Source: Rubellimicrobium thermophilum DSM 16684 (GTDB lineage: Bacteria > Pseudomonadota > Alphaproteobacteria > Rhodobacterales > Rhodobacteraceae). From it: a stretch of DNA of 64,000 nt. A model generated the notes under the pieces. It was not told the DNA's origin. It did no database searches and saw only the letters and a list, made by a program, of their open reading frames with translations. The stretch spans positions 1,079,606 through 1,143,605 of the forward strand of contig NZ_KE557320.1 in the NCBI RefSeq assembly GCF_000442315.1, read 5' to 3'. Of this stretch, positions 2,131 to 53,561 are shown piece after piece (position 1 is the first letter of the stretch; the number at the start of each line of letters is the position of its first letter). The position numbers were made by a program, and so were the translations under genes.

Positions 2131-2527
2131 TCTTCCCGGTTTCCGGGCCCGGATCCCCTCCTCCTCCCGGGGATCCCGGTCTGAACGGCGGCCCGCTCCT
2201 CCTCCTCCCGGAGCGGATCGCCGGCTGGCGGCGGGACCGACCTCCTCCCTGTCCCGCCGCTCCGATCTTTCATCCGCCCGCGTGCCCTCCTCCTCCCGGG
2301 TGCGGGGCGGCTCGCGGCGGAGCCACCTCCTCCCGGCTCCGCCGCCCGGATTTCGCAGGCTCCCTTCTCCTCCCATTTCCGGGGGCCTGGCGGAACGGCG
2401 GCGGGCCACCTCCTCCCGGCCTGCCGCCCGCTTCTCGAACGGCTCGTCCCACCTCCTCCCGGGACGGCAGCCATGCGAGACGGCGGCCCGCCCCTCCTCC
2501 TCCCGGGGCGGTGCCGCCGCTTTTCTT
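2131..2527 (+). ncRNA. Array of nine CcsR/'cuckoo'-type small RNA hairpins
   Basis: Directly after the DUF1127 stop there are nine stem-loops whose loops carry CCTCCTCCC or a one-base variant. Arms are 2151-2158/2169-2176, 2193-2199/2210-2216, 2228-2237/2251-2260, 2281-2287/2298-2304, 2314-2324/2335-2345, 2356-2364/2381-2389 (variant loop TCTCCTCCC), 2397-2407/2418-2428, 2445-2450/2461-2466 and 2481-2494/2505-2519. The stem sequences differ but stay complementary, so the structure is under selection. A small extra hairpin (2135-2147) precedes them. The motif is an anti-Shine-Dalgarno sequence. In Rhodobacter sphaeroides four homologues (CcsR1-4) are processed from the DUF1127 transcript and act in stress and C1 metabolism. 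Nine hairpins make this a larger array than the four-RNA one I know. Confidence 0.88.
2481..2527 (+). terminator. Rho-independent terminator formed by the last array hairpin
   Basis: The ninth hairpin has a seven-pair outer stem (2481-2487 with 2513-2519), a single bulged T at 2512 and a seven-pair inner stem (2488-2494 with 2505-2511). It is followed at once by TTTTCTTT. It is the strongest stem in the array and the only one with a T tract, so it should end the DUF1127-sRNA transcript before the benE gene. Confidence 0.75.
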
Positions 2528-12890: not shown

Positions 12891-12965
12891 GCGGGTGTAG
12901 CTCAGGGGTAGAGCACAACCTTGCCAAGGTTGGGGTCGAGGGTTCGAATCCCTTCGCCCGCTCCA
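12891..12965 (+). tRNA. tRNA-Gly (anticodon GCC)
   Basis: A 75-base cloverleaf. The acceptor arm GCGGGTG pairs with CGCCCGC, with discriminator T and an encoded CCA end. The D-arm is GCTCAGGGGTAGAGC. The anticodon stem CAACC/GGTTG frames TTGCCAA, giving anticodon GCC. The T-arm carries GGTTCGAATCC. All invariant positions are present. It sits 77 bases after pyc in the same direction. Confidence 0.98.
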
Positions 12966-53156: not shown

Positions 53157-53252
53157 GGGCTCGGCGGGTCAGGACGGGCCGACCCGCGTGACCGCCTCGG
53201 CGCATCCGGAAGCCCCTTGACAGCGCCCTTCGGCCGCTGTTGTCTCCGCGCC

Positions 53253-53438
53253 GATGGTGTCCGGCCCCGGTGACGGGGTCGGCTGAAAAGGGAACACGGT
53301 GAGGAAGAGCCGAAGGGCGCCGAATCCGTGACTGCCCCCGCAACTGTGAGCGGCGAGCCATCCTGCAACGGCCACTGGGGCATTGCGCTCCGGGAAGGCG
53401 CAGGACGGCCAGGACCCGCAAGTCAGGAGACCTGCCAT
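53253..53438 (+). ncRNA. Cobalamin (adenosylcobalamin-type) riboswitch
   Basis: All conserved elements of the B12 riboswitch appear in order: AAAAGGGAACACGGTGAGG, GCCGAATCCGTGACTGCCCC with GCAACTGTGAGCGG, GCCACTG at 53371, then the B12 box AGTCAGGAGACCTGCC (53421-53436). It lies 120 bases upstream of a B12-type ABC importer operon on the same strand, so binding cobalamin should shut off uptake genes. Confidence 0.96.
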
Positions 53439-53561
53439 CGCATCTTCAACCGCACCGGGCGGGGTGTCCCGGGGGGGAGGACGGAATGACGGACCGGCTC
53501 TTGCCGCCCATGCCCTGTGCCTTGCCATCGGCCCCGCCTGCCGGACGGAGGCCGGCGAGCC

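Follow-up and report, generated by a model that had tools for sequence, protein, structure and literature searches.

A probable ccaF1–CcsR-type operon with nine cuckoo hairpins in Rubellimicrobium thermophilum

Behind a DUF1127 gene in Rubellimicrobium thermophilum DSM 16684 lies a run of stem-loops that present nearly the same motif in their loops, and the locus raises the question of what kind of element this is, how it would be expressed and whether its size sets it apart from arrays already described. The stretch of DNA analysed here, referred to as the window, is 64,000 nucleotides long (contig NZ_KE557320.1, positions 1,079,606–1,143,605). The cuckoo RNA family is described as having two to four hairpins per RNA and a conserved CCUCCUCCC loop (Reinkensmeier and Giegerich 2015), and the literature available on the CIN1 arrangement gives linkage to a DUF1127 gene, an RpoHI/RpoHII promoter, processing by RNase E and a terminator at the 3′ end (background also from the available text of PMC10746234, PMC10253847, PMC4504443, PMC8307010, PMC8625941, PMC7866481, PMC3320616, PMC5036791, PMC3688512 and PMC10888616). 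In this study, the locus is well supported as another CIN1 array of the type already described, in which nine hairpins are no record. It is probably a ccaF1–CcsR-type (CIN1, cuckoo RNA) operon with an RpoH-type promoter, the transcript of which would be cut into small RNAs that cover ribosome-binding sites. The comparison with relatives yields a range of 3 to 26 loops, a tendency towards two-hairpin units, a last hairpin that is often the terminator and a shared promoter block.

Nine hairpins behind a DUF1127 gene

The gene order, the nine paired stems, their conservation in the genus, the promoter block, the position of the terminator and the pair periodicity can be read from the sequence itself. 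The features of the locus are as follows.

1748–1758, + strand: position of the upstream dyad, here GCGCATGGCGG, degraded relative to the CTGCATRGCAG of relatives
1777–1804, + strand: promoter block TTGTGCA-N3-GCAGCA (1777–1792), with TTG as −35 and CCCATCT (1798–1804) as −10, at RpoH-like spacing
1899–2123, + strand: DUF1127 gene, CcaF1-like, 74 aa (Pfam PF06568, E 2.2e-14; 43% identical to the 71-aa DUF1127 protein of genome G051 over 72 positions)
2144–2183, + strand: hairpin 1, single, adjoining the DUF1127 gene (from the fold)
2186–2260, + strand: hairpins 2 (2186–2223) and 3 (2228–2260), putative unit 1 (from the fold, and from a linker richest in A/T after hairpin 3)
2274–2345, + strand: hairpins 4 (2274–2310) and 5 (2314–2345), putative unit 2 (fold and linkers)
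2351–2428, + strand: hairpins 6 (2351–2395, TCTCCTCCC loop) and 7 (2397–2428), putative unit 3 (fold and linkers)
2433–2519, + strand: hairpins 8 (2441–2472, outer pairs 2433–2480) and 9 (2481–2519), putative unit 4 (fold and linkers)
2481–2528, + strand: hairpin 9 with the T tract 2521–2528, intrinsic terminator; a T-rich stretch also lies behind the last hairpin in relatives

The fold of positions 2131–2560 gives nine consecutive stem-loops on the + strand between 2144 and 2519, as the first-pass annotation had proposed. Eight of the loops contain CCTCCTCCC and that of hairpin 6 contains TCTCCTCCC (starting at 2366); the cuckoo motif CCUCCUCCC is exact in eight of the nine, and the ninth has C changed to U at its first base. 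All eight copies of CCTCCTCCC in the 64-kb window lie on the + strand at 2160–2504, against a mean of 1.88 and a maximum of 5 in 100 shuffles. The loops are mostly of 10 nt, with 16 nt in hairpin 6 and a slight irregularity in hairpin 3. A two-loop pattern matches nine times in the whole genome, eight times at the window locus and once at a lone pair, and reveals no second array; the 8-mer CTCCTCCC is not enriched genome-wide (218 occurrences versus 297 for the reversed string). Rfam at the gathering threshold gives no match for the array. Long open frames that run across it were considered as protein-coding and rejected, being read as products of the high GC content.

The stems had also been described as complementary yet different in sequence, and this is confirmed for them as a set. 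When 3′ arms were exchanged among the hairpins of the window with the loop kept open, the mean folding energy was −24.2 kcal/mol with the own arm and −13.9 kcal/mol (s.d. 5.0) over 72 swaps, although the own partner was not the best in three of the nine hairpins. The 5′ arm of hairpin 2 reached −29.7 kcal/mol with the 3′ arm of hairpin 9 (own −25.2), that of hairpin 3 reached −24.5 and −24.0 with the 3′ arms of hairpins 7 and 9 (own −22.2) and that of hairpin 8 reached −18.0 with the 3′ arm of hairpin 9 (own −17.2). The same exchange, carried out once for each of 556 hairpins from 61 loci (that of the window and 60 others, each from a different family genome), gave −20.2 kcal/mol for own and −10.4 kcal/mol for swapped arms. 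Since arm exchange weakens folding on average, the stems as a group are genuine, though not necessarily every single hairpin.

A terminator had been placed after the array. An intrinsic terminator does lie at the 3′ end, but the role belongs to hairpin 9, which is both a cuckoo hairpin and the terminator because the T tract follows directly behind it. Hairpin 9 is absent from a generic terminator scan of the window because that scan permits loops of 3–8 nt only. The hairpin at 2530–2549 was considered as a terminator and rejected, as no T run lies behind it. Directly 3′ of the last hairpin, a T-rich stretch is found at 40 of the 61 loci, compared with ten of 488 inner hairpins, and at all eight loci of the genus.

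The order of DUF1127 gene, array and terminator, likened by the first-pass annotation to that of the CcsR locus, is borne out by the PF06568 frame, the hairpins and the T tract; the loop motif, the paired stems and this frame likewise support the assignment to the DUF1127-linked cuckoo/CcsR family. NCBIfam gives no match for the window DUF1127 protein, and the genome contains three DUF1127 matches in all. A frame of this kind ends at most 300 nt upstream of the array, on the same strand, at 58 of the 61 loci; L010, L013 and L018 have no DUF1127 gene upstream. An Mrp/ApbC-like gene (by Pfam; under the NCBIfam cut-off) lies 5′ of the DUF1127 gene on the opposite strand, and a benE-type transporter gene lies downstream of the array. 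Elsewhere in the window, a cobalamin riboswitch (53238–53453) and a tRNA gene (12891–12962) give clear Rfam matches. On another contig of the genome (C3, about 76105–77503), subunit I of an aa3-type oxidase is matched in two adjacent pieces (L262 and L263) that join near 76590, a picture that resembles a frameshift, whether genuine or introduced by the assembly.

Array size and stem pairing among relatives

A three-loop pattern was found in 149 of 394 family genomes and in all eight genomes of the genus, that of R. thermophilum included. The arrays range from 3 to 26 loops, the longest being L012 of genome G165, which lies behind a single DUF1127 gene. The sample is biased towards long arrays, 30 of the 60 genomes having been chosen for their high counts. 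At least seven overlapping three-loop matches on one strand, which correspond to about nine loops or more provided that the matches lie together, occur in 22 of the 394 genomes, again including that of R. thermophilum. A record hairpin number for the window was considered and rejected in view of these counts and the 26 loops of G165. The exact pattern misses wide or degenerate arrays: G051 scores 0 yet has 14 loops.

Matching the genus arrays hairpin by hairpin gave nine loops in the window, G394, G396, G397 and G399; by motif, G398 has eight and G395 seven, with a changed loop in hairpin 2 (in G395 also in hairpin 1), and in G291 nine motifs are present, the first being followed by a longer stretch. 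About nine loops are the norm in the genus. In hairpin 2 of G395 (L209) and G398 (L220) the stem-like sequence is kept and the CCTCCTCCC loop motif is lost.

Orthologous hairpins were compared anchored on the loop, because MAFFT alignments of the whole array (at CTC repeats) and of hairpin 4 slip. Pairing had been expected to be conserved in relatives, and it is kept for the set: over 60 hairpins of seven genomes (G291 left out), own arms fold at −21.7 kcal/mol and arms swapped between orthologues at −18.4 kcal/mol. It is not kept for every hairpin, however, as the window 5′ arm of hairpin 3 folds at −26.7 kcal/mol with the 3′ arms of its orthologues and at −22.2 kcal/mol with its own. The suggestion that divergence between the stems provides separate target sets finds no support, as the loops share one motif and the stems drift but stay paired on average, in the manner that would be expected of structural stems.

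A scan of all prokaryotes returned at least 120 stretches with at least 136 loop chains, at least 41 of which have DUF1127 within 400 nt. Among the matches listed, the well-paired chains are nearly all alphaproteobacterial; a Streptomyces (L079, −16.4) is an exception. Stand-alone three-hairpin cuckoo genes without DUF1127 are present in G394 (L201), G395 (L202), G398 (L205 and L212), G397 (L227) and G396 (L299). About 50 nt upstream of their first loop lies the promoter block, unchanged or slightly altered; they end in a T run, and their hairpins are similar to the final three of the genus arrays. The two-loop pattern detects no such gene in the genome of R. thermophilum.

The promoter block and a possible link to PhaR

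Transcription would be expected to start near 1813, downstream of the promoter block. In the aligned upstream regions of the genus, an AT-T element follows TTGTGCA-N3-GCAGCA. With at most 4 mismatches in 17 positions, the block is found at 57 of 59 loci with a DUF1127 hit, and shuffled sequences, one per locus, always had at least 5 mismatches; the window and L194 match by construction, because the block was read from the genus. The two misses are L018, which was scored from an unrelated hit, and L173. A stricter promoter pattern is found at only five of the 59 loci. The exact block occurs once in the genome of R. thermophilum and once in G051, in each case at the array locus. An RpoHI/RpoHII-type promoter is reported for ccaF1–CcsR of Rhodobacter (Cereibacter) sphaeroides, and the TTG and an A 23–24 nt later in the block, conserved with G051, fit the features of such promoters as given in the available text of PMC3441632. 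On the sequences compared, the near-invariance of the block is a new observation.

A dyad, CTGCATRGCAG, usually lies about 28–29 nt upstream of the TTG. The sequence CTGCNNNGCAG is exact in 36 of 63 promoters (L018 and L173 left out) and present with one mismatch in 17 more, compared with 0% and 1.8% in shuffles; as the loci are related, these counts express conservation and not 63 independent events. The window differs from CTGCNNNGCAG by three mismatches at the dyad position and by two at the best nearby place.

According to the available text of PMC12542648, PhaR of R. sphaeroides binds CTGCNNNGCAG. We put forward, tentatively and as something short of a probable reading, that RpoH and the PHB-sensing regulator PhaR jointly control the cuckoo/CcsR arrays of the family. 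Acting at a pair of TGC dyads, the first ahead of the −35 and the second located between it and the −10, PhaR would keep the promoter off, and PHB granules would draw PhaR away and so release it. The same source provides a precedent in Sinorhizobium meliloti, where PhaR represses the small RNA MmgR, the gene of which carries TTGTGCACCGCAGCA, and where phaP1 and phaP2 have two PhaR sites flanking the −35 (PMC12542648); the PhaR sites of B. diazoefficiens look alike (PMC6201568). Compared at the promoter only, mmgR of S. meliloti has TTGTGCA-N2-GCAGCA, close to the block of the window, with two free bases in the mmgR element and three in the array block.

With two or three free bases allowed, the exact block occurs nine times in five genomes, compared with once for a reversed control pattern. 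Five of the nine are the array promoters of G000, G051, G291, G396 and G399. Of the others, one precedes the three-hairpin element L299, which stands alone, two precede DUF1127 genes (L296, with two hairpins, and L294, without a loop motif in its vicinity), and the last precedes the phaR gene of G396 (L298, contig C94), where the block starts 31 nt ahead of the start codon. The product of L298 is PhaR (PHB_acc_N, E 5.1e-28; NCBIfam PhaR equivalog, 156.6 bits against a cut-off of 109.45). The next gene upstream of phaR in G396 (L298/L300) encodes a phasin (Phasin_2, 26.1 bits against 24.9), the promoter of which has two CTGCN3GCAG (CTGCNNNGCAG) dyads 28 nt apart. A likely phasin gene of Pseudorhodobacter turbinis, whose 23.7 bits fall slightly short of the cut-off, has an exact dyad and a second with a mismatch, placed around a TTG. 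Queries with phaR and phaP of G396 had no tblastn match in the window or in the other fetched loci. On the PhaR reading, the presence of the block upstream of three-hairpin copies and of lone DUF1127 genes as well would mark out one small dispersed regulon.

Several observations are at odds with control by PhaR. TGC and GCA are separated by four bases in the array element, compared with three in the published sites seen, and the upstream dyad of the window, GCGCATGGCGG, is degraded. With its two to three mismatches to CTGCNNNGCAG, the window promoter is accordingly not counted among PhaR targets. The exact block precedes phaR in only one of the five genomes, all exact hits in the other four being accounted for. 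Among the matches listed from the open-access literature there is no report of PhaR control of DUF1127/CcsR-type loci. If PhaR does bind the block, a stress small-RNA system and the PHB store would be wired together, and the entire set of ribosome-binding-site blockers would be coupled to both carbon storage and stress. The promoter is the part of the locus most worthy of experiment, and the question of PhaR and the block is directly testable in R. sphaeroides.

Processing, candidate targets and relation to known arrays

In the 48 arrays of at least six loops, loop spacing alternates, with an odd–even difference of 6.78 compared with 3.62 on permutation (0 of 2000 permutations). Alternation of A/T content in the linkers of the same arrays is weaker (1.02 versus 0.76; 2 of 2000 permutations), and its direction is weak as a family average (5.46 versus 5.81 A/T per 10). 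The spacing alternation would be fitting for two-loop CcsR units. The most A/T-rich linkers of the window follow hairpins 3, 5, 7 and 9, and the array is therefore read as 1 + 4 × 2. The G165 array consists largely of repeats of about 140 nt, each spanning three loops, i.e. of units other than two. A nine-loop array would agree with the limit of two to four hairpins in cuckoo RNAs only if the transcript is cut, and the spacing suggests cutting into pairs.

In the proposed mechanism, the RpoH-type promoter at about 1777–1804 would give one transcript, encoding the DUF1127 protein, carrying nine hairpins and ending at hairpin 9. RNase E, aided by the DUF1127 protein, would cleave the A/U-rich linkers, producing mainly two-hairpin small RNAs (2–3, 4–5, 6–7 and 8–9) and hairpin 1. 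The loop CCUCCUCCC, a copy of the anti-Shine–Dalgarno core, would together with Hfq cover ribosome-binding sites of the GGGAGGAG type, and ABC solute-binding proteins would be one candidate class of targets. Stress induction, the roles of RNase E and the DUF1127 protein, Hfq binding and the block of translation are inferred here by analogy with the R. sphaeroides and rhizobial literature.

Candidate sites were sought in the genome of R. thermophilum. The sequence GGGAGGAG lies 2–10 nt before ATG at 47 sites (four for the reversed pattern) and AAAGGAG before ATG at 22 (five reversed), an enrichment expected of any strong Shine–Dalgarno sequence. Thirty GGGAGGAG loci were fetched, and of their 23 frames of at least 100 aa 22 were scanned (L238 left out). 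Five of these 22 encode ABC solute-binding proteins, and others a trimethylamine methyltransferase-family protein and a protein with a GcvT domain; behind AAAGGAG, all 18 frames of this length were scanned and none encodes a solute-binding protein. The bias, in small numbers, would agree with that of NfeR1, for which mostly ABC transporter targets are predicted in the available text. The leader of the DUF1127 gene has no GGAGG, so the gene may escape its own RNAs.

The array might instead stay on the messenger or on one long RNA, as a multivalent sponge (for Hfq or the DUF1127 protein) or a 3′ stabilizer. A loop number that varies from 3 to 26 suits a dosage device, the loops are nearly identical, and both CcaF1 and Hfq are reported as binders of such RNAs; however, CcsR1–4 are reported as excised by RNase E, and the loop spacing has the periodicity of pairs, and we consider this reading rather unlikely. 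GC-rich, foldable repeat DNA (REP-like or from tandem duplication) without RNA function, to which the near-identical tandem units of some arrays (G165, G366, G027 and G051) and the short copies scattered in sister genomes could point, is highly improbable in the face of arms that match beyond composition (556 hairpins, −20.2 versus −10.4 kcal/mol), a fixed position behind DUF1127 (58 of 61 loci) and a promoter block that is conserved even at stand-alone copies.

The preferred reading, an operon of the ccaF1–CcsR type, leads to the comparison with R. sphaeroides. A COX1 fragment, taken from an alignment to a solved structure that we take to be that of R. sphaeroides, was searched in 76 family genomes, selected mainly by size; G051 is identical to it over 314 aa and the next best genome reaches 89%. 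G051 is accordingly taken as R. sphaeroides itself or a genome very close to it. At locus L266 of G051, a DUF1127 gene encodes 71 aa, as stated for CcaF1; behind it lie 14 loops in seven pairs, five of them nearly identical, and beyond these a hairpin that has a degenerate loop and is followed by a T run. Four CcsR RNAs (CcsR1–4) are described in the available R. sphaeroides literature, and RSs0680a, later CcsR1, as two stem-loops with an anti-Shine–Dalgarno sequence (PMC3927594); a strain or assembly difference may lie behind the excess of pairs in G051 over four. The claim that the window has more hairpins than CcsR1–4 does not stand: four two-loop units make eight loops and G051 has 14, so that the window has no excess over R. 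sphaeroides, and about nine loops are normal in the genus and 26 are present in G165.

The ccaF1–CcsR1–4 locus (RSP_6037 and RSs0680a–d) has a DUF1127 gene, paired CCUCCUCCC hairpins, a terminator and the promoter block, as in the window. The two differ in layout: G051 has linkers of about 75 nt between pairs and a degenerate terminal hairpin, whereas the nine loops of the window lie 37–48 nt apart and the last hairpin is the terminator. With the cuckoo family as described, the window shares the CCUCCUCCC loop and stems without sequence conservation, but cuckoo RNAs have two to four hairpins and the window has nine in a row. NfeR1/alpha-r14 and SmelA075/SmelA099 of Sinorhizobium, according to the available descriptions, present the same anti-Shine–Dalgarno loop motif as the window; with three or four hairpins they are closer to the stand-alone three-hairpin genes of the sister genomes than to the window array.
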